From Lacrimispora xylanisolvens (GTDB lineage: Bacteria; Bacillota; Clostridia; Lachnospirales; Lachnospiraceae): a DNA stretch of 64,000 nucleotides. The first letter of the stretch is position 1, and each line of letters starts with the position of its first letter. The DNA is taken from assembly GCA_017084465.1 (NCBI GenBank), contig CP070896.1, positions 1-64,000 on the forward strand, in the 5' to 3' direction. Of this stretch, positions 34,701 to 46,012 are shown piece by piece. The notes under the pieces were generated by a model. The model was not told the origin of the DNA. It was given only the letters and a program-made list of their open reading frames with translations, and made no database searches. The position numbers and the translations under genes were made by a program.

Positions 34701-35279
34701 TATAAAGAAGTTTCAGAGCGGTATGAATTTATGAAGACACAGCATGACGATCTGATTACTGCCGAGGGAACCTTATTAAAAATTATCGATGAGCTTGATA
34801 CTGGAATGAGAAAACAGTTTGAAGAAAAATTCCGGGAAATCAGAGTGGAGTTTGATAAAGTTTTCAAGGAACTGTTCGGTGGCGGGCGTGGTGCACTTGA
34901 ACTTGTGGAAGATGAGGATATTCTGGAGGCGGGAATACAGATTGTTTCCCAGCCGCCTGGCAAAAAGCTTCAGAATATGATGCAGCTCTCCGGTGGGGAA
35001 AAGGCACTGACGGCCATAGCACTGCTTTTTGCAATTCAGAATTTAAAGCCATCTCCGTTTTGTCTTCTTGATGAGATTGAGGCCGCGCTGGATGACTCCA
35101 ATGTGGATCGTTTTGCAAAATATTTGCATAAGTTAACAAAATTTACACAGTTTATTGTTATTACACACAGGCGCGGTACCATGGTGTCTGCTGATCGTCT
35201 GTATGGTATCACCATGCAGGAAAAAGGCGTCTCGACGCTTGTATCTGTTAATCTGATTGAAGAAGATTTAGAAAGTTAA
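31716..35279 (+). CDS. smc: Chromosome segregation ATPase SMC, four frameshifts
   Basis: Condensin core protein of about 1187 residues. N-terminal Walker A is in [22 protein letters not shown]; two long coiled coils surround a hinge around [15 protein letters not shown] and [10 protein letters not shown]; the C-terminal head has [19 protein letters not shown] and Walker [17 protein letters not shown]. Breaks: extra A at 31723-31729 right after the start MYLK, near 31870 and 31910-31917 in the N-terminal head, and an extra A at 32899-32905. From 32906 to the stop the frame is open. Start 31716 gives the family start [17 protein letters not shown] after repair. ftsY follows. Confidence 0.94.
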
Positions 35280-35290
35280 GGAGGCCGACA

Positions 35291-36231
35291 ATGGGAGAAA
35301 AAAAGGGATTCTTTGGAAAACTGGTAGCTGGACTGCAAAAGACAAGAGATAATATTATCGCAGGTGTGGATTCCATTTTCAACGGTTTTTCGGCCATTGA
35401 TGATGAGTTTTATGAGGAAATTGAAGAAATTCTGATTATGGGTGATCTGGGTATCCAGACGACTACATCAATTGTGGAAGACTTGAGAAAAAAGTAAAAG
35501 AAAAAAACATCAAGGATCCGTCAGAATGTAAACAGCTTCTTATGGACAGTATCATGGAACAGATGGATTTGGGAGAAAATGCATATGAATTTGAGAGTCG
35601 TCGCTCCGTTTTATTAATAATCGGAGTGAACGGAGTGGGTAAAACCACTTCTGTAGGTAAGCTGGCAGGACAAATGAAAGACGATGGAAAAAAAGTGATC
35701 GTTGCAGCTGCCGACACATTCCGCGCAGCTGCAATTGAACAGCTGACAGAATGGGCGAGAAGGGCAAACGTGGATATTATTGCTCAGCAGGAAGGCTCTG
35801 ACCCGGCGGCAGTTGTATATGATGCAGTTGCTGCAGCAAAATCCAGACAGGCGGATATATTAATCTGTGATACGGCAGGACGTCTCCACAATAAAAAGAA
35901 CCTGATGGAAGAGCTGAAAAAAATTAACCGGATAATTGACAAAGAATATCCAGAAGCATATCGGGAAACTCTTGTGGTCTTAGATGGAACTACCGGCCAG
36001 AATGCTCTTGTGCAGGCGAAACAGTTCATGGAAGTGGCTGATATTACCGGAATTATTCTTACTAAGCTGGATGGTACGGCAAAAGGAGGGATTGCGGTAG
36101 CAATTCAGTCCGAGCTGGGAATTCCGGTGAAATATATTGGTGTCGGGGAGAAGATTGATGACTTGCAGAAATTCAATGCAAAAGAATTTGTAAATGCATT
36201 GTTTCACGTAGAAGAGAAAGAAGAGGCGTAA
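35291..36231 (+). CDS. ftsY: Signal recognition particle receptor FtsY, one frameshift
   Basis: GTPase that docks SRP-ribosome complexes at the membrane. About 313 residues with the short N-terminus usual in Firmicutes. G1 GVNGVGKTTSVGKLA, AAADTFRAAAIEQL, G3 CDTAGRLHNKKNLM and G4 TKLDGTAKGG are clear. One A is missing in the run at 35487-35493. AAGGAGG precedes the ATG; it is 11 bp after smc, a conserved pair. Confidence 0.96.
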
Positions 36232-36234
36232 ATT

Positions 36235-37458
36235 ATGTTGACATTGGAAAAGTTTGAGGAAGCATCAGAAGTCGTTGGCAAGGTTACCCTGGAAACAAAG
36301 CTTATATACAGTGAGTATTTTTCAGCTCAGACTGGTAATAAAGTGTATTTTAAGCCGGAAAATATGCAATATACAGGGGCCTATAAAGTAAGAGGTGCTT
36401 ATTATAAAATCAGCACTCTGACAGAGGAAGAAAAATCCAAAGGTTTGATTACTGCCTCTGCCGGCAATCATGCACAGGGTGTTGCCTATGCTGCAAAGCT
36501 TGCCGGGATTCCCGCTACCATTGTCATGCCTACAACAACTCCTCTGATGAAGGTTAACCGGACGAAAGGATACGGAGCAGAAGTGATTCTGGAAGGGGAT
36601 GTCTTTGATGAAGCCTGCAATCATGCCTATAAGCTGGCAGAAGAAAGAGGACTTACCTTTGTACATCCGTTTAATGATTTAGATGTGGCAACCGGACAGG
36701 GTACCATAGCAATGGAAATCATCAAAGAACTTCCTACAGTTGATTATATTCTGGTTCCAATCGGAGGAGGCGGTCTTTGCACAGGCGTTTCCGTATTGGC
36801 AAAGATGTTAAATCCCAAAATTAAGGTAATTGGTGTGGAGCCTGCAGGTGCAAACTGCATGCAGGAGTCAATTCGCCAGGGGAAAGTAGTATCTCTTCCA
36901 ACTGTCAATACAATCGCAGACGGTACAGCTGTTAAATGTCCTGGAGACAAACTTTTTCCCTACATCCAGGAAAATGTGGACAGTATTATAACAATTGAAG
37001 ATTCAGAACTGATCGTAGCATTTTTAGATATGATGGAAAATCATAAGATGGTGGTTGAAAACTCCGGACTTCTTACGGTCGCCGCTTTAAAGCATATTGA
37101 TGTGGATAATAAAAAGATTGTATCTATCTTAAGCGGCGGAAATATGGATGTCATTACAATGGCCTCTATCGTACAGCTGGGACTGATTCAGAGAGACCGT
37201 ATCTTCACCGTCTCCATTCTGCTTCCCGATAAGCCAGGAGAGCTGGCTAAAGTATCTGCCCTTCTTGCAAAAGAGCAGGGCAATGTCATCCGTCTGGAAC
37301 ATAACCAGTTTATCAGCATTAACCGGAATACAGCGGTAGAATTAAGAATTACACTGGAAGCTTTTGGTACAGATCATAAGAATGCTATAATGGCAGCTCT
37401 TACTTCTCAGGGGTATCGGCCAAAGCTGGTGAAATCTAAAGGAACATATGGGGACTAA
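36235..37458 (+). CDS. ilvA: Threonine ammonia-lyase with C-terminal ACT domain
   Basis: PLP enzyme that converts threonine to 2-oxobutanoate and ammonia. 407 residues, intact. The PLP Lys is in YTGAYKVRGAYYK near residue 51, SAGNHAQGVAYAA binds the substrate carboxylate, and IGGGGLCTG binds the PLP phosphate. The last 80 residues form one ACT domain (FTVSILLPDKPGELAKVS). The length fits the short ilvA/tdcB-like class, which may be biosynthetic or catabolic. It starts 3 bp after ftsY, so it may be co-transcribed. Confidence 0.93.
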   Translation: MLTLEKFEEASEVVGKVTLETKLIYSEYFSAQTGNKVYFKPENMQYTGAYKVRGAYYKISTLTEEEKSKGLITASAGNHAQGVAYAAKLAGIPATIVMPTTTPLMKVNRTKGYGAEVILEGDVFDEACNHAYKLAEERGLTFVHPFNDLDVATGQGTIAMEIIKELPTVDYILVPIGGGGLCTGVSVLAKMLNPKIKVIGVEPAGANCMQESIRQGKVVSLPTVNTIADGTAVKCPGDKLFPYIQENVDSIITIEDSELIVAFLDMMENHKMVVENSGLLTVAALKHIDVDNKKIVSILSGGNMDVITMASIVQLGLIQRDRIFTVSILLPDKPGELAKVSALLAKEQGNVIRLEHNQFISINRNTAVELRITLEAFGTDHKNAIMAALTSQGYRPKLVKSKGTYGD

Positions 37459-37470
37459 TGAAAGAAACAA

Positions 37471-37510
37471 AAAGAAGCAGAAACTGGACGTACTCCGGTT
37501 CTGCTTCTTT
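37471..37510. terminator. Bidirectional terminator between ilvA and agrA
   Basis: Perfect 12-base arms 37471-37482 and 37499-37510. The 3' arm ends in TTCTTTTATT on plus and the mirror side is A-rich, so it can serve both converging genes. Confidence 0.8.
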
Positions 37511-37512
37511 TA

Positions 37513-38253
37513 TTATAGACATTTTAGTGATTTATGTACCTTGGACAGCAGTCGTACAGATACTGAATAAGATTCTTTATTATTCATATACAAAAGTGCA
37601 TCTTCTCTTGAATATTTTATCACATGTTTTAAATTAACTATTGTGGATCGGTTGCATTGACAAAAATGTGAGTTCAAAGAAGCACTCAGTTCTTTGAGGG
37701 AACCAGACATTTGGCGGAAACCATTCAAAGTATGAATAATTATTTTGTGATACTCTTCACTTGTAGTAATGGCAACAATATCATCCTGATCCATGACCAA
37801 TGATGCTTTATCAACCTTTATGGACAAAAGACGGTCAGATGAATCTAATTGATTCCGATATTTTGTTTCCGCATTCTTTATGCAGGAATAGATCTGTTCA
37901 GGAAGATCGCTTACTTTATCTTTTACAATAAAGTCCATGGCTTCTACTTTGTATTGAAAGGTCAGATATGCCATTTCACTATGTGTTGTTACAAAGACAA
38001 TATATCCACGTGGATCATATTTGCGGATTTCTTCTGCCAATTGGATTCCATTCTTATTCGCTCTTAAATCTATATCCAGAAAATACAGGCCGGTAATATT
38101 AGAGTCTTTTCTTACCTTTAATAAATCATCCGGATAAGATGTAGCGCAATATAGCAATGACTCCGTTGAGTTCATTAATAAATATTTTTCTATAATAGAT
38201 GTCCAGCGTAATAATTGTCTTTTATCGTCTTCGCAAAGATATATATGAATCAT
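37513..38253 (-). CDS. agrA: LytTR response regulator, AgrA-like
   Basis: 246 residues, intact. The receiver domain has acidic IYLCEDDKRQ near the N-terminus and the phospho-acceptor Asp in LYFLDIDLRANKNGIQLA; the C-terminal LytTR DNA-binding domain holds HTLNGFRQMSGSLKELSASL and FCQCNRSTIVNLKHVIKYSR. Its ATG overlaps the agrC stop by 4 bp (ATGA), and AAGGAG lies inside the end of agrC. It should bind LytTR direct repeats, and a candidate pair is seen upstream of agrB. Confidence 0.93.
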   Translation of the reverse strand: MIHIYLCEDDKRQLLRWTSIIEKYLLMNSTESLLYCATSYPDDLLKVRKDSNITGLYFLDIDLRANKNGIQLAEEIRKYDPRGYIVFVTTHSEMAYLTFQYKVEAMDFIVKDKVSDLPEQIYSCIKNAETKYRNQLDSSDRLLSIKVDKASLVMDQDDIVAITTSEEYHKIIIHTLNGFRQMSGSLKELSASLNSHFCQCNRSTIVNLKHVIKYSREDALLYMNNKESYSVSVRLLSKVHKSLKCL

Positions 38254-39575
38254 AATTGCTCCTTGTTACCATAATGCATCAGAATCAGTTCCTGAGTAAA
38301 ATATGGTTCTTTATAAATTGTGTTCCATACCACATTATCATAATGATTCAGTACCATGGAAACATTATACAAACCGACGCCTCTGTTTTCACCTTTTGTT
38401 GATACCCCCTGTTCGCGGAGCTTATATAAAGAATGATCAGGAGGAAGAGCAGTATTTTTAATAACAATATAAAGATCGTCTTCTTTATAAAACATACAAA
38501 AATGCAACTCTTTTTCGTTTGTTTCTGCAGTTGCCTCAATGGCATTGTCCAAAAAAATGCCAATAATCCGGGATAAATCAAGAGCATCCATATACAAATT
38601 AGTAATTGGTTCTGTTAATTCAATTTCTGCTTTAATTCCTGTTTCCATGGAATAAATAAATTTAGAGGAAAGGAGGCTTTTTAATGCTGTGTCCTTTATA
38701 TTTGATAAAGTGCCAAGTTTTGTATCTGATTCCGTGAAAGAATGACTGATTGGTATTATTTTTTCTCCGAAATATTTTTTCAATCCCTGCAAATCATTAT
38801 CTTCCATAAATCCGGACATTGTTATAAGAATATTCATATAATCATGTTTGAACTTTCGCATTGTGCCATAGGACATTTCAAGCCTGTCTGTATAAGTTCT
38901 AAGATTTTCAAATTGCGACATACGGTTTTTATAGGAAAGCTCCCCCATAGTTGCTTTATAGATGGAATACATTAAAAAAACAGTGATTGCAAACAGCAAT
39001 AAAAATAGTATTCCATTCAAAGCAATTACACCATAATTGTATCCTAATTGTTCACCGTATGAAAAATTAAAAATATAAAAGAACACTAAAATAAAAAGGT
39101 CAGTAAAGATGGCCTTTAAAAGATGACGATTGGTTAAATACTTTGACAAATTAAGCTTTTTATGAAAATACCAACCCAGCATTTTAGTAGTTACTCCGCA
39201 AAATACACAGTAAAATATTGAAAAAATAATTGTCAGATTGTCCCGTACTAATAATTCTGCCATATCCATACGAAGAAAATAACTTGTCAGCCACATGATA
39301 ATATAATTAAAAGTGACTGAGTATAAGTAACCAAAAAGAAAGCATGAGGAAGAGAAAAAGTCAAATTTAGAAAAGACCATGGCTATAATCAGTATTCCTC
39401 CATAAGTTAAAAAAGTGCTTATTTGACCAAACATTCGATTGAACAGGTATACTGTCAGGAATGAGTATAAAAATAAAATCAGTTTCTTAAAAATGTTAAG
39501 TTTATGAGGAAGTAAATGAACGCATGAAAAATAACTGCATAGGCTTCCTGTTAATGAATAAATTAAGTAAGTCAT
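38250..39575 (-). CDS. agrC: Quorum-sensing histidine kinase, AgrC-like
   Basis: Membrane sensor of about 441 residues. Six or seven hydrophobic helices occupy the first 200 residues, followed by a coiled coil, the phospho-acceptor His in RKFKHDYMNILI and a GHKL ATPase domain with IFLDNAIEATAE and RGVGLYNVSMVL. Start 39575 (MTYLIYSLTG) is chosen over 39590 because GAGGTGG lies 6 bp ahead of it. It would sense the peptide made from agrD and phosphorylate AgrA. Divergent from agrBD. Confidence 0.93.
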   Translation of the reverse strand: MTYLIYSLTGSLCSYFSCVHLLPHKLNIFKKLILFLYSFLTVYLFNRMFGQISTFLTYGGILIIAMVFSKFDFFSSSCFLFGYLYSVTFNYIIMWLTSYFLRMDMAELLVRDNLTIIFSIFYCVFCGVTTKMLGWYFHKKLNLSKYLTNRHLLKAIFTDLFILVFFYIFNFSYGEQLGYNYGVIALNGILFLLLFAITVFLMYSIYKATMGELSYKNRMSQFENLRTYTDRLEMSYGTMRKFKHDYMNILITMSGFMEDNDLQGLKKYFGEKIIPISHSFTESDTKLGTLSNIKDTALKSLLSSKFIYSMETGIKAEIELTEPITNLYMDALDLSRIIGIFLDNAIEATAETNEKELHFCMFYKEDDLYIVIKNTALPPDHSLYKLREQGVSTKGENRGVGLYNVSMVLNHYDNVVWNTIYKEPYFTQELILMHYGNKEQL

Positions 39576-39684
39576 ATTATGCCACCTCATCTGCCGGGTA
39601 CTATTATTCTACAATTCATATGACAAAAAGTAAAGTGAAATTGTATTCAAAAGTCAAGAAATTGACGCTTAGGAATAAAAAAAC

Positions 39685-39716
39685 AACGTTAATTGCAAAA
39701 ACATTTGTAAGTTAGA
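39685..39716 (+). promoter_or_regulatory. LytTR-type direct repeats, candidate AgrA site
   Basis: AACGTTAAT (39685-39693) fits the LytTR consensus in all nine positions and TAAGTTAGA (39708-39716) in eight. Start-to-start distance is 23 bp, against about 21 in known sites. The second repeat lies next to the -35 position of a TAAAAT box at 39725-39730. Confidence 0.55.
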
Positions 39717-39724
39717 TTTTATGG

Positions 39725-39730
39725 TAAAAT
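39725..39730 (+). promoter_or_regulatory. Candidate -10 box of agrBD
   Basis: TAAAAT with no good -35 box, as expected for an activator-dependent promoter. A transcript start about 7 bp later would exclude the ATG at 39729 and supports GTG 39753 as the agrB start. Confidence 0.4.
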
Positions 39731-39752
39731 GGCATTGTTTGGTGGTGATAAA

Positions 39753-40341
39753 GTGATTATTTCGAGATTTTCAGCTGCTCTCTGTTGCTTATTAAATAAG
39801 GTTAATCCCAGAGATGAAGATGATAATATTACAATACAATATGGAGTTGAGCTGATATTAGATAATTTATTAAAGCTTTTGTTCATTCAGCTTCTAGGTT
39901 TTTTATTCGGTATGGGAGTTGAAACATTCATAATTTTATTTGTATTTTGTTCTTTGCGTCTGCAGGCTGGGGGAATTCACGCAAAAACAAATGCAGGTTG
40001 TTTTTTTGGTATGGTGACAGTTTGGGTTCTGTCTTTATCAGGAACAATTGTTTTCAAATTAAGCATATTTAATGTACTGGTTATCTATGTGTTTAGCCTG
40101 ATTATTTTTATATGTCTGGTACCGAAAAGCAAAAATATTACTTATTTTACTCGCTCAGCTATATTAAAGAAAAAAAATTATATCAATTTTTTTTGTTAAC
40201 CCTTTAGTATTGATTGCTATTTACAATGAAAATCTGAGAGAGTTGATCATTTATCCGGTTGCTTTGGAAGTACTAACATTACTTCCTCCAAATAAAGATG
40301 TTATGAAAGGAGATTTAAAAAATGAAGAAAGAAATTGTTAA
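39753..40341 (+). CDS. agrB: AgrB-like peptide protease/exporter, one frameshift
   Basis: Membrane endopeptidase that trims and cyclises AgrD. About 195 residues with four or more hydrophobic helices. The catalytic His and Cys are both seen in LQAGGIHAKTNAGCF. The frame breaks in the T-run at 40187-40194; in the next frame it goes on VNPLVLIAIYNENLRELI to a stop at 40339-40341 that overlaps agrD. GTG 39753 with GGTGGTG 5 bp upstream is preferred to ATG 39729, which has no ribosome site and lies in the likely promoter. Confidence 0.9.
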
Positions 40342-40471
40342 AGGATTACAAAAGGTTTTGCTTAAGGTTTCTGTTAATTCTGTTGAAAAAAGCATTCCAG
40401 CAACTATGTATGAAAGAGAAATTCCAAAAGCTGTTCTGAAAAAACATGAGACTGAGGCAAAGAATAACTAA
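40322..40471 (+). CDS. agrD: AgrD-like autoinducer prepeptide without cysteine
   Basis: 49-residue peptide whose ATG lies 20 bp inside the end of agrB, as usual for agrD. It has an amphipathic N-terminal part (MKKEIVKGLQKVLLKVSVNS) and an acidic or mixed C-terminal recognition part with YEREIPKAVLKK, matching the (Y/H)(E/Q)xxxP pattern that follows the ring in AgrD proteins. The region where the ring Cys is expected reads EKSIPATM: Ser is the only residue that could close a ring. The reading frame is open from start to stop, so a serine lactone, or a linear peptide, is likely. Identification rests on position and pattern. Confidence 0.8.
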   Translation: MKKEIVKGLQKVLLKVSVNSVEKSIPATMYEREIPKAVLKKHETEAKNN

Positions 40472-40666
40472 ATTTAAATGTTTCTTTCGTAGTACTATTT
40501 ATTAGCCTAATATTTATAATCTCAATCATGTGATTTTATTGTCATTAGGCAGGGGAGTATGACCGTAATTATATCATATGAATTGGTCATCTATGAGTGT
40601 TAATATATTGAAATTTATATATCTAAATGTTTTACTGTGCGTATGATTAATTGGGAGAAAGTACAG

Positions 40667-40855
40667 ATGAAAACAAAAATGTTTCGAAAATTTCTTGGAT
40701 TGGAACGTGAAATTCCTCATTACTCTGTTCTTAATGATGATACATCAAGTGACAGTAAGAGAATGATCATTCCAAGGGAATATCTAATAGAAGTAATAAC
40801 AACAATTCCTGAACGGCGGGTTGTTATTGAACATTTAGATGTTTATCAAGAATAA
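40667..40855 (+). CDS. Unknown 62-residue protein next to agrD
   Basis: Not recognised. A soluble, charged protein (MKTKMFRKFLGLEREIPHYS... VIEHLDVYQE) without signal peptide, helix repeats or cysteines. ATG 40667 is chosen because GGGAGA lies 8 bp upstream; earlier in-frame GTG 40637 and ATG 40643 have no ribosome site. It is 195 bp after agrD, same strand, and shares the terminator that ends the locus. It could be a target or part of the quorum system, but nothing proves this. Confidence 0.6.
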   Translation: MKTKMFRKFLGLEREIPHYSVLNDDTSSDSKRMIIPREYLIEVITTIPERRVVIEHLDVYQE

Positions 40856-40871
40856 TACATCGGAAAGTACT

Positions 40872-40918
40872 AAAAAGCAGATAAGAAGAGAGTTAAGCTT
40901 TCTTCTTATCTGCTTTTT
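40872..40918. terminator. Strong bidirectional terminator, agr locus and rqcH
   Basis: Perfect 18-base arms 40872-40889 and 40901-40918, with five T at the end of the 3' arm on plus and five A at the start of the 5' arm (T on minus). It separates two converging genes. Confidence 0.92.
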
Positions 40919-40923
40919 AAGGT

Positions 40924-42669
40924 TTAACTATTCACTGCTTCCGAATCTATCTTTGGTTCTGCCACCATAGAATAATTTGTATGATAGATTACAAAACCGG
41001 GAGCGGCTCCCGCAACTTTTTTAATCTGTTTTTTCTGTATATAATCTATCTCAACCTTATCGTTTTCTCTTCCTTTAGAATAGTAAGCAGCCAGAGCACC
41101 AGCCTCTTCAAAGGTGCGGTCGGGAAGTTCTTTTCCTTCTGATTTGACAATGACGTGGGAGCCGGGAATTCCTTTGGCATGAAACCACCAGTCATTACCA
41201 CTTGCAACCTTAAAAGTTAACTCCTCATTCTGATAGTTGTTCTTTCCTACATACATATGGAAGCCGTCAGATGAAATATAATGAAAAGGTTTGCTGGTTA
41301 TTTTCGGTTTTTTGTCTCCGCTTCTGCGATGCTTGACATAGCCATACTCCATAAGTTCTTCTTTAATCTGCACAAGATCTTCTTCCAGCAAAGCAATATC
41401 CAGTGCTGCACTGATGGACTCCAGGTGGTCAATTTCCTGCCGGGTTTCACTGATCTGCCCTGTAACGGCTTCAAACGTTCGTTTTAATTTATTGTATTTG
41501 TCAAAATATTTCTGAGCGTTTTCCCTGGCAGAAAGCTGGTCGTCTAAGGGAATGGTAATCTCCTCATTGGTATAATAGTTAAGGCAGGTGAGCTTCTTTT
41601 CACCTCCTGTCAGTTCATAACCGTAGGTATTTAAAAGCTCTCCATATACTTTATACTTATCCTTTTTCTCCGTATCTTTTAACTGCTTTTCCTGGAGATC
41701 GTATTTTTTGTAATTACGTTCCAGAGCCGTCTGTACAATCTTCCTTAAATCAACGGATTTCTGACGAATTCTTGTTACTGCATTTTTGGAAGCATAGTAG
41801 GTCTCTAAAAGAGTACTGATGGATTCGAAGGTTTTGGCTTCGTAATCGCTTCCTTCATAGCAGGTGAGTGAAACAGCTGCAAATTCTACCGGTTCCTCAT
41901 TCTTATAAACAATATTTGGTTTAAATGATCCTTTTTTGATATCTTCTATCATAAAAGAGAACATGCGGTAAAGATGTAAGAGTTCTGTCTCTGACAGCTC
42001 ATTGGCAGAGTGATCTCCATCAATAGAAGCCAGATGACAAAGTTCATGGCCAATGATGGGACTGATACCGGTCAGATTTAAATAAAGACTCTTTTGTACT
42101 GGTGCGGCCGCATGCCTGAAAGTAGAAATAAATTCTTCTTCGGTAATGGTCAGGGGATCTTTCTTGTCCATGGTCTGGGGAATAAAATATTTTCTCCCGG
42201 GCAATACCTCACGAATGGAACTTACCTGGGCAGAGATGTGTTTAATACTGTCCAGAATCATATCATCTTCATTGCAGAAGATGATGTTACTGTGTTTTCC
42301 CATAATTTCTATCATGAGTTTTTTCGTCCGTCTGTCGCCCAGTTCATCTAAATGTTCAATTTCCATGCAAAGGATTCGTTCCAGACCAGGCTGGCTGATT
42401 CTCATGATTCTGCCATTGCCAATATGTTTTCTTAGAAGCATACAGAAATTAGGAGCAGTCAGAGGACTTTGCTTGTTGTTTTCCGTGAAATAAACCAGTG
42501 GTAAGCTGGCACTGGCTGAAATTAAAAGTTTCCATGTATTTTTTTGATTTTTAACAGTAAACAGCAGTTCATCTTTTTCCGGCTGGGCGATTTTAGAGAT
42601 CTTTCCGCCTTCCAGCCGGTCTTTCATTTCTGCCGTGAGATTTGCCATAACAATTCCATCAAATGCCAT
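40924..42669 (-). CDS. rqcH: Ribosome quality control protein RqcH (NFACT)
   Basis: Binds stalled 50S subunits with peptidyl-tRNA and, in Bacillus, recruits Ala-tRNA to add C-terminal alanine tails. 581 residues from MAFDGIVMANLTAEM, intact. The NFACT-N domain has the DR pair in LGDRRTKKLMIEIMGKHSN; a coiled coil lies around residues 300-430; the NFACT-R domain holds FHMYVGKNNYQNEELTFK and NDWWFHAKGIPGSHV. Start 42669 is favoured by GGAGGA upstream; the longer reading from 42723 has none. Older names are FbpA or fibronectin-binding protein. Confidence 0.95.
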   Translation of the reverse strand: MAFDGIVMANLTAEMKDRLEGGKISKIAQPEKDELLFTVKNQKNTWKLLISASASLPLVYFTENNKQSPLTAPNFCMLLRKHIGNGRIMRISQPGLERILCMEIEHLDELGDRRTKKLMIEIMGKHSNIIFCNEDDMILDSIKHISAQVSSIREVLPGRKYFIPQTMDKKDPLTITEEEFISTFRHAAAPVQKSLYLNLTGISPIIGHELCHLASIDGDHSANELSETELLHLYRMFSFMIEDIKKGSFKPNIVYKNEEPVEFAAVSLTCYEGSDYEAKTFESISTLLETYYASKNAVTRIRQKSVDLRKIVQTALERNYKKYDLQEKQLKDTEKKDKYKVYGELLNTYGYELTGGEKKLTCLNYYTNEEITIPLDDQLSARENAQKYFDKYNKLKRTFEAVTGQISETRQEIDHLESISAALDIALLEEDLVQIKEELMEYGYVKHRRSGDKKPKITSKPFHYISSDGFHMYVGKNNYQNEELTFKVASGNDWWFHAKGIPGSHVIVKSEGKELPDRTFEEAGALAAYYSKGRENDKVEIDYIQKKQIKKVAGAAPGFVIYHTNYSMVAEPKIDSEAVNS

Positions 42670-42746
42670 TGTTTGTGTCCTCCGGTAAGGTTTATAGATG
42701 GAGATAGTATACCACAGAAACACGGTTATGTAAAATTTAAAACCAT

Positions 42747-42775
42747 TTGACTTGTTTTTTATTATGACTTATAAT
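42747..42775 (+). promoter_or_regulatory. Sigma-A promoter of the yicC-gmk-rpoZ operon
   Basis: TTGACT at 42747-42752, 17-base spacer, TATAAT at 42770-42775. Leader about 30 bases before the yicC ATG. Confidence 0.75.
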
Positions 42776-42809
42776 GGTTTATATCTATGGCGAAAGAGAG
42801 GCATTTGTA

Positions 42810-43688
42810 ATGATTAAGAGCATGACAGGTTTCGGCAGGTACGAAACCGTCACGGATGAATATAAAATTTCCGTCGAGATGAAGGCTGTAAATCACAGAT
42901 ATTTGGATTTAAGCATAAAGATGCCGAAAAAGTTTAATTTCTTTGAAGCAGGGATCAGAAATCTGTTAAAGAATTATATTCAGCGCGGTAAAGTAGACGT
43001 TTTTATCAGTTATGAAGATTATACGGAAAACAAGCTGTGTTTAAAGTATAACAGTGCGCTGGCTGCTGAATACATGGGATATTTTGCAAAGATGGAAGAG
43101 CAGTTCGGAATTCAGAACGATATCAAGGTTTCTGCACTCGCCAGATGTCCGGAAGTACTTATTATGGAAGAAGTACCGGAAGATGAGGATCAGATGTGGA
43201 AGCTTCTTTCAGAAACAGTAGAAGAAGCTGCAAAGCGTTTTGTGGAAACAAGATTAACAGAAGGCGAAAACTTAAAGACGGATCTTCTTGGTAAGCTGAA
43301 CCTGATGAATGATATTCTTGAATTTATTGAAGAGAGATCTCCAAAGATTCTTGTGGAATACAGGGCAAAGCTGGAAGATAAGGTGAAAGAGCTTCTGGCA
43401 GGAGCTGCCATTGATGAGGGCAGAATTGCTTCGGAAGTAACCATTTATGCAGATAAGATCTGTGTGGATGAAGAGACGGTTCGTTTAAGAAGTCACATTG
43501 AACATACACGGTCAGAACTGGAAGCTGGAGGAATTGTGGGCAGAAAACTGGATTTCATCGCCCAGGAGATGAATCGGGAAGCCAATACCATTCTTTCAAA
43601 GGCCAGTGATTTAGAGGTTTCAGATAAGGCAATTATATTAAAGACTGAAATTGAGAAAGTACGGGAACAGATCCAGAATATTGAGTAG
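42810..43688 (+). CDS. yicC: YicC-family endoribonuclease
   Basis: 292 residues, intact. MIKSMTGFGRYE at the start, the EMKAVNHRYLDLSIKMP motif near residue 25 and the C-terminal GRKLDFIAQEMNREANTILSKA are family signatures. E. coli YicC is reported to be a ribonuclease that acts on RyhB-type RNA. ATG 42810 follows AGAGAGG. It heads an operon with gmk and rpoZ, a common order in Clostridia. Confidence 0.92.
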   Translation: MIKSMTGFGRYETVTDEYKISVEMKAVNHRYLDLSIKMPKKFNFFEAGIRNLLKNYIQRGKVDVFISYEDYTENKLCLKYNSALAAEYMGYFAKMEEQFGIQNDIKVSALARCPEVLIMEEVPEDEDQMWKLLSETVEEAAKRFVETRLTEGENLKTDLLGKLNLMNDILEFIEERSPKILVEYRAKLEDKVKELLAGAAIDEGRIASEVTIYADKICVDEETVRLRSHIEHTRSELEAGGIVGRKLDFIAQEMNREANTILSKASDLEVSDKAIILKTEIEKVREQIQNIE

Positions 43689-44671: not shown

Positions 44672-46012
44672 ATGAAGTTATTATGCATATCACTGGGCTG
44701 TGATAAGAATCTGGTAGATACGGAGATGATGTTAGGCCTTTTAAATAGAGACGGTTATACTTTTACGGATGACGAATATGAGGCAGATGTCATTGTTATC
44801 AATACCTGCTGTTTTATTGGCGATGCCAAGGAAGAAAGTGTCAATACCATTTTAGAGATGGCACAGAGAAAATAGACGGCAACTGTAAGGCACTGATTGT
44901 TACAGGCTGCCTGGCACAGCGTTATAAGCAGGAGATTATTGATGAGATACCGGAAGTAGATGGTATTCTGGGAACATCAACCTATGACGAGATATCCAAT
45001 GTTTTAAAGAAGGCATTGGGAGGCGAGGGATCCGTATCCTGTTTCCATGAACTGGATTTACTTCCCCAGACAGAAACAGACAGAATCCTTACCACGGGAG
45101 GCCATTATGCCTTTTTAAAAATTGCAGAAGGATGTGACAAGCATTGTACTTACTGTATCATCCCGACTTTAAGAGGCAATTATCGCAGTGTTCCCATGGA
45201 AAATCTGATTAAAGAAGCAGAGAAACTGGCTGATAAGGGCGTAAAGGAACTGATTTTAGTAGCCCAGGAGACCACTTTATACGGTGTGGACTTATATGGA
45301 AAAAAATCTCTTCCTGAATTATTAAAGAAACTTTGCCAGATATCAGGGATTCAATGGATTCGCATCCAGTACTGTTATCCAGAGGAGATTACAGACGAGC
45401 TGATTGAAGTTATGAAAGAAGAAAGCAAAATCTGCCGTTACTTAGATATGCCGATTCAGCATGCAAGCGACCGGATCTTAAAACGCATGGGAAGAAGAAC
45501 ATCAAAAGAGCAGCTAAAGGACATCATTAACAAGCTTCGCAGTGAAATTCCTGATATTGCACTGAGGACTACACTGATCTCCCGGATTTCCGGGAGAAAC
45601 AGAGGAAGATCACGAAGAACTGATGGAATTCGTGGATGAGATGGAGTTTGAACGTCTTGGCGTATTCGCCTATTCCGCAGAAGAAGATACACCAGCAGCA
45701 GAATTTCCTGATCAGGTTCCACAGGAGATTAAAGAGGATCGCAGAGATGCGATTATGGAGCTTCAGCAGGAGATTTCCCTTGACCTTTCCCAGTCCATGG
45801 TTGGAAAAACCCTGGAAGTAATGATTGAGGGAAAAGTTGCTGACGAGAATGCATATGTAGCAAGAACCTATATGGATGGCCCGGGAGTGGATGGTATGAT
45901 TTTTGTTCAGACAGGTGAGGAACTGATGTCTGGGGATTTTGCAAAAATCCGTGTTACCGGAGCGATGGAGTATGACTTAATAGGAGAGTTGGAAGATGAA
46001 TTTACCGAATAA
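44672..46012 (+). CDS. rimO: Ribosomal protein S12 methylthiotransferase RimO, two frameshifts
   Basis: Radical SAM enzyme that adds a methylthio group to an Asp of S12. About 446 residues. The N-terminal MTTase domain has [15 protein letters not shown] and [15 protein letters not shown], the radical SAM cluster is [15 protein letters not shown], and a TRAM domain ends the protein. RimO rather than MiaB is shown by SLGCDKN and [12 protein letters not shown]. One A is missing at 44868-44872 and one C is extra at about 45579-45582. pgsA starts 17 bp inside its 3' end. Confidence 0.94.

Follow-up and report, generated by a model that had tools for sequence, protein, structure and literature searches.

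A cysteine-free AgrD-type precursor in Lacrimispora and its predicted six-residue serine ring

Introduction

How would an agr locus close the ring of its signal peptide when the precursor beside agrB has no cysteine? The question is raised by a locus in the window, by which we mean the whole stretch of DNA that was analyzed, the first 64,000 nucleotides of contig CP070896.1 of Lacrimispora xylanisolvens. The original prediction for this locus, made from the letters alone, described an AgrD-like peptide without Cys, offered either a serine lactone or a linear signal, and considered a six-member ring SIPATM to be unusual in size. Both S. pseudintermedius and E. faecalis have signals closed as Ser lactones, as passages of three papers state (PMC3673130, PMC4774685, PMC12312760). 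Here we go through the gene content, conservation, and relatives of the locus, and weigh what kind of peptide it is likely to make.

Results

Gene content of the locus

The genome holding the locus is a single contig of 5.63 Mb, and its completeness is given as 89.5% despite the single contig. The genes agrA and agrC lie on the minus strand (37513-39590), divergent from agrBD, while agrB, agrD, and a small ORF that we call X follow on the plus strand. The agrA-type response regulator (LytTR; 37513-38253, 246 aa) matches PF04397 (6.9e-15) and PF00072 (4.9e-10), and the agrC-type sensor kinase (38250-39590, 446 aa) matches PF14501 (3.7e-14). Both are complete ORFs, as had been predicted, with the GHKL, LytTR, and receiver domains detected by Pfam; by these domains and the gene order, the linked AgrC-type GHKL kinase and LytTR response regulator of an agr locus are present. 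The two proteins also match the NCBIfam models for AgrA (NF046049, 2.4e-51) and AgrC (NF046015, 1.4e-59), yet under the cut-off of each model. The AgrC is 98% identical to its counterpart in the nearest relative.

The agrB gene (39753-40341, plus strand) has its likely start at a GTG at 39753, and its product matches PF04647 (3.5e-22). The catalytic His and Cys named in the original prediction are retained as His-x6-Cys (RLQAGGIHAKTNAGC), and GG[IV]H-x6-C is kept in all 25 AgrBs of the genus. What the prediction missed is that the frame is broken in the assembly: it stops at 40199 after about 150 residues, and the C-terminal part is in another frame that runs to 40341. In the five closest relatives agrB is an open frame of 209 aa (81-93% identity over that stretch). 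The 10.5 kb in common with the nearest relative differ in length by a single base at four places, and the only one of these inside agrB is in a homopolymer tract. We believe that the break is likely an assembly error, because ftsY (35279-36231), about 5 kb from agrB, is likewise split at another homopolymer, near about 35494, and ftsY is essential; it is a single frame in the relative. A third length difference, near 44869, has the longer frame on this genome's side, which speaks against a one-sided picture. A frame-changing sequence error had been named as something that could overturn the prediction, and the one seen here touches agrB but not agrD. A paralogous agrB of this genome (L001) likewise matches just in part.

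Right beside agrB is a small precursor gene, agrD (40322-40471, plus strand), whose beginning overlaps the 3' end of agrB. A good ribosome-binding site, AGGAG (40308-40312), precedes its ATG start by nine bases. As read from the ORF and its alignment with the genus, the product has 49 aa and no Cys; a serine, Ser24, stands at a ring-closing position, 11 residues before Pro35 of the C-terminal Pro motif. Against the NCBIfam model for the AgrD cyclic lactone autoinducer peptide (TIGR04223) it scores 17.3 bits, under the curated cut-off of 19, with residues 3-40 aligned to model positions 1-38 of 38. We therefore call the precursor AgrD-type by its position and the layout of the locus, and do not file it under TIGR04223. 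That model matches 4 of 17 genus AgrDs at E up to 1, and the hydrophobic moment of the leader is not above shuffles (four leaders tried); both are counted against our best reading below.

Conservation of the precursor

We found 25 genomes of the genus by their AgrB (24 relatives and this one), and in all of them the same kind of precursor follows agrB, which is more than chance would give. No Cys is present anywhere in 24 of the 25 AgrDs, and the single Cys of the other (L011) lies beyond the ring region, in the C-terminal tail. The claim of an AgrD-like peptide without Cys is borne out, and on comparative grounds we regard this Cys-less AgrD-type precursor as real. The core in all 25 is [KR]-S-[IF]-P-[AV]-x-[MIV] before YER[EK]IP, with Ser24 and Pro26 fixed and a basic residue directly before Ser24, so the alignment in relatives that had been proposed as a check on the serine comes out in its favor. 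The predicted six-mers are SIPATM in eight genomes, SIPAGI in seven, and SIPAGV in five, and SIPATI, SFPAGI, SIPAAI, SIPVTM, and SIPALI are seen once each.

Among the 24 distinct agrD sequences, the Ser24 codon is always AGC or AGT, one base away from the Cys codons, and variation in the codons of Ser24 and Pro26 is purely synonymous. The ring codons have an uncorrected pN/pS of 0.25 and those of YERxIP one of 0.06; the YEREIP of this precursor (40409-40426, plus strand), a C-terminal motif past the predicted cut, is the most constrained part of agrD.

A second set of 17 loci came from a named-genome search with the AgrD alignment, the best being L. defluvii (96% of AgrD). By name, seven of these are Lacrimispora and the others Clostridium, Hungatella, or Paenibacillaceae bacterium; the precursor is in all 17 by construction, because AgrD was used for that search. 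A profile of the 17 AgrD members run against 392 genomes of the order gave strong matches in the genus only (five genomes) and two marginal ones. A profile of Ser-x-Pro AgrDs (A3), also run against 392 genomes, has matches with E up to 1 in 139 of them. Seven are clear: the five of the genus plus L180 and L181, which correspond to L169 and L148 of the profile itself. L182 comes next (E 9.6e-4) and is a Ser type with a five-residue ring that adjoins an AgrB, and none of the other fetched matches (L183-L204) was beside an AgrB ORF found by the AgrB profile.

The predicted ring and its alternatives

Measured from the conserved Pro, this AgrD would form a ring of six residues, against five for the two Cys-type paralogs that the genome also encodes. 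The codons of the predicted ring, Ser24-Ile-Pro-Ala-Thr-Met29, are at 40391-40408 on the plus strand, as placed by the genus alignment and the position relative to the conserved Pro. The Met29/Tyr30 junction coincides with the cleavage site expected from that Pro, and the span from the nucleophile to the predicted cut is six residues by alignment. Two distant AgrDs of two other families (L148, L169) share R-S-x-P with six residues. Our preferred reading, to which we give a probability of about 0.7, is that this is a complete agr-type quorum-sensing locus in which AgrB would cut before Tyr30 and Ser24 would close the six-residue lactone SIPATM. Between the two signals offered originally, the Ser lactone is the best supported, given the invariant Ser24 and the aligned Met29/Tyr30 junction, and the linear signal found no positive support.

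It is unlikely that the tail-less serine lactone is just an intermediate and that an O-to-N acyl shift turns it into a head-to-tail cyclic hexapeptide as the lasting signal. The basic residue directly before Ser24 throughout the genus would allow a tail-less product, and a 2025 primer states in one passage that AIPs without an N-terminal extension can rearrange (PMC12312760). The tail-less Listeria AIP is described as rearranging to a homodetic peptide, and at 37 C its lactone analogue had rearranged to 48% after 22 h (PMC11297923). A longer N-terminal tail, however, would block the shift. We consider it quite unlikely that AgrB releases a linear peptide, as a ring region without Cys could suggest, since Ser24 is fixed at ring-closing distance, the AgrB active site is conserved, and S. 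aureus AIPs are stated to be inactive in linear form (in a passage of PMC12312760). Still more improbable is a larger ring that starts at Ser20 or Ser17. Both serines are also invariant in the 17-row AgrD alignment, which we count against our best reading, and larger rings are known, such as the nine-residue one of enterococcal GBAP, but Ser20 and Ser17 sit 15 and 18 residues before the conserved Pro, and L148 and L169 keep Ser24 and Pro26 although both lack Ser17 and one lacks Ser20. A decaying system with agrD as a relic, to which the broken agrB frame of this assembly could point, is scarcely tenable, since agrB is open in the five closest relatives, the break fits an assembly error, and agrD has a pN/pS well below 1, on which ground we reject a dead gene.

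A second agrD with Cys that serves this AgrB had been named as another possible refutation of the prediction. We rejected it, because the two Cys-type agrDs found in the genome each adjoin an AgrB of their own. For the remaining AgrB locus of this genome (L003), no AgrD candidate was found; by eye, this AgrB has a kinase-like ORF beside it.

Cys-less precursors in the order and class

For the order, we examined 85 of the 87 AgrB places listed in 46 of 106 genomes, leaving out a genus copy already included and a fragment, and an AgrD candidate (threshold E < 1e-4) was found for 58 of the 85. All 58 were classed by the residue 10 or 11 before the conserved Pro, which is Cys at -10 in 30, Cys at -11 in 5, Ser or Thr at -10 in 15, Ser at -11 in 4 (including this locus), and other in 4. 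An earlier form of the rule, which took Ser before Cys in L151, gave 29, 2, 16, 4, and 4, with 3 unplaced. Cys is missing from -6 to -14 in 21 of the 58 and from the whole ORF in 12. Because 23 of 58 are without Cys at either usual position, we consider Ser-type precursors to be common in the order. A class sample outside the order covers 82 of 82 places besides G000's own, in 40 genomes (41 of 109 searched genomes matched, G000 included), and its 47 AgrDs have Cys at -10 in 22, Cys at -11 in 8, Ser or Thr at -10 in 15, and Ser at -11 in none, with 2 others, one of which is unplaced under the uniform rule. The missing ring Cys is thus not exceptional in the order or the class.

In these surveys we also noted a Ser-type AgrD that is letter-for-letter identical in L152, L156, and L297, two of which are of one genus in the order and one from outside the order. 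Their AgrBs are nearly identical, and recent horizontal transfer would be a likely cause of the AgrD identity. On another contig (G459:C80), three agr units (L264, L265, L266) lie within about 22 kb and have near-identical AgrBs, and their AgrDs are six-residue Cys-type with ring sequences that differ.

Ring size and the AgrB tree

The size of the ring is also less unusual than the original prediction held, as a six-residue ring has already been described for clostridial AIPs (in passages of PMC10301443 and PMC12312760). We compared ring size with AgrB in two trees, in both of which L151, where a Cys directly precedes the Ser, was treated as a five-residue Ser row. The first tree has 66 AgrBs, 57 surveyed and nine Lacrimispora, with the frame-broken copy of this locus left out and L137 set aside as ambiguous. 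One clade takes 15 of the 16 six-residue rows and two ambiguous rows (UFBoot 93, SH-aLRT 85, not starred), a clustering that is swollen by near-copies because nine of the six-residue rows are one genus. Ring size changes 2 times on this tree (3 for the group label, against a shuffled mean of 14.3) and the nucleophile 12 times. If L151 is read as six-residue, the clade has 15 of 17 rows and ring size changes 3 times, which we count against the link.

The second, a quick tree, has 113 rows with the class sample included; L292 is entered as Ser -10, and both L246 and L281 count as ambiguous. The six-residue rows that are new here, 8 in number, all group with the six from outside the genus and with the two ambiguous rows (SH-aLRT 83), and there are 2 changes of ring size and 17 of the nucleophile. 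Two results are counted against the link: the Lacrimispora AgrBs join the other six-residue AgrBs under a weak fork (SH-aLRT 24), which also takes in 21 five-residue rows, and the six-residue row L165 is outside the clade in both trees. Judged by these trees, the AgrB phylogeny is followed more closely by ring size than by the nucleophile, and we find this link between AgrB clade and ring size more useful than the missing Cys.

Upstream repeat and the small ORF X

Upstream of agrBD is an AgrA/LytTR-type direct repeat, ACGCTTAGG-N12-ACGTTAATT (39665-39694, plus strand), with a 21-bp period, which is conserved in an alignment of 24 intergenic regions. AgrA binds such direct repeats in staphylococci. 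An extended -10-like element, TGGTAAAAT (39722-39730, plus strand), was identified by reading the sequence and from the intergenic alignment, and overlaps an alternative ATG that the ORF listing assigns to agrB. The exact repeat pattern occurs once in the whole genome, before agrBD. Among the 17 named loci, 12 have exact repeat matches, another four score highest with the repeat profile at the equivalent position, and the contig of L073 begins too late; since sites of this kind went into the profile, the result is partly circular. When up to 2 mismatches are allowed, the pattern is found at 6 places in the genome, versus 31 for a reversed-pattern control, so we have no candidate regulon beyond agrBD. 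Within the window, the second-best match to the repeat, which is far weaker, is at 40837-40870, overlaps the end of X, and is found in the closest relatives too. A search of 37000-43000 with Rfam gave no family at gathering score (e.g., RNAIII) and four matches far below it.

X (40667-40855, plus strand, 62 aa; the ORF listing has an alternative start at GTG 40637) is found in all 25 genus genomes beside agrBD, with two copies in G009, each on the contig of AgrB and within about 1.5 kb of it. In 36 other genomes we found none, apart from one marginal match. No Pfam family matched X of this locus, and 16 X members gave three stray weak Pfam matches to single members each (best E 0.037). The best E of a PDB profile search was 0.69, and the AlphaFold2 model has a mean pLDDT of 55. 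We found no terminator between agrD and X, and a bidirectional terminator-like hairpin is seen in the sequence 3' of X (40998-41012).

Two genomes, G012 and G009, have open 212-aa AgrC-like proteins adjoining the agr locus (L170:4922-5560 and L171:4878-5516, both on the minus strand), which contain the membrane sensor part and no kinase; none is listed for the other 23 genus genomes. Kinase-less proteins of this kind could possibly be decoy receptors.

Discussion

If the locus makes the six-residue serine lactone, the AgrB Cys would cut after Met29, the Ser24 hydroxyl would attack the acyl-enzyme, and Ser-Ile-Pro-Ala-Thr-Met would be released as a lactone. The fixed basic residue just before Ser24 may mark the site of leader removal, with no tail left. 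The peptide would then activate AgrC, and AgrA would bind the single repeat upstream of agrBD and raise transcription of agrB, agrD, and X; we include X because of the missing terminator between it and agrD. A bolder version is tentative and, taken as a whole, unlikely: in Lacrimispora, as a Ser-x-Pro branch, a tail-less hexalactone would become a cyclic hexapeptide and switch on the genus-private X as its main output, with ring size inherited with the AgrB subfamily and the ring-closing atom (S or O) switching freely.

The trees suggest a rule that can be tested, in which a ring of five or six residues is predicted from the AgrB clade and the precursor tells a thiolactone from a lactone. Many likely signals in the class would be overlooked if AgrD were recognized by its Cys. 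A nearly constant, Pro-containing Ser hexalactone across the genus would be a simple test case for AgrB setting the ring size.

Comparison with known systems

In the literature searched, which covered few subscription journals, no description of an AIP with a six-residue serine ring came up, and none of this Lacrimispora peptide. Serine lactones and rings of six residues have each been published, though we did not find the combination there, and the locus otherwise follows ordinary agr logic. Passages of one paper give five antiSMASH cyclic-lactone-autoinducer clusters in L. brassicae and call them common in Lacrimispora (PMC11316579); such clusters may include this locus and its paralogs, and those passages name neither ring chemistry nor a missing Cys.

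The AIP of L. monocytogenes is similar in being tail-less and able to rearrange (PMC11297923), as the signal here possibly is, but is a five-residue thiolactone, versus a predicted six-residue lactone. GBAP of E. faecalis (Fsr) is a Ser lactone, as is predicted here, and is processed by FsrB (PMC3673130, PMC12312760), with a nine-residue ring versus the predicted six. In C. acetobutylicum, where the six-residue AIP R6T0 was used as a synthetic signal (PMC10301443; we read the name as meaning no tail), the ring has the size predicted here and agrBD and agrCA are likewise separate operons, but the ring is closed through Cys, whereas the Lacrimispora AgrD is predicted to close through Ser. The effector CA_C0082 (lanthipeptide-synthetase-like) follows agrCA there, according to the same source, while here the 62-aa X follows agrBD. 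The AIP of S. pseudintermedius/intermedius shares with our locus the Ser in place of the ring Cys, the lactone as predicted here, and the agrBDCA logic (PMC3673130, PMC4774685), but it has a five-residue ring with a tail, whereas alignment gives six residues for the predicted ring here, the third of which is Pro.
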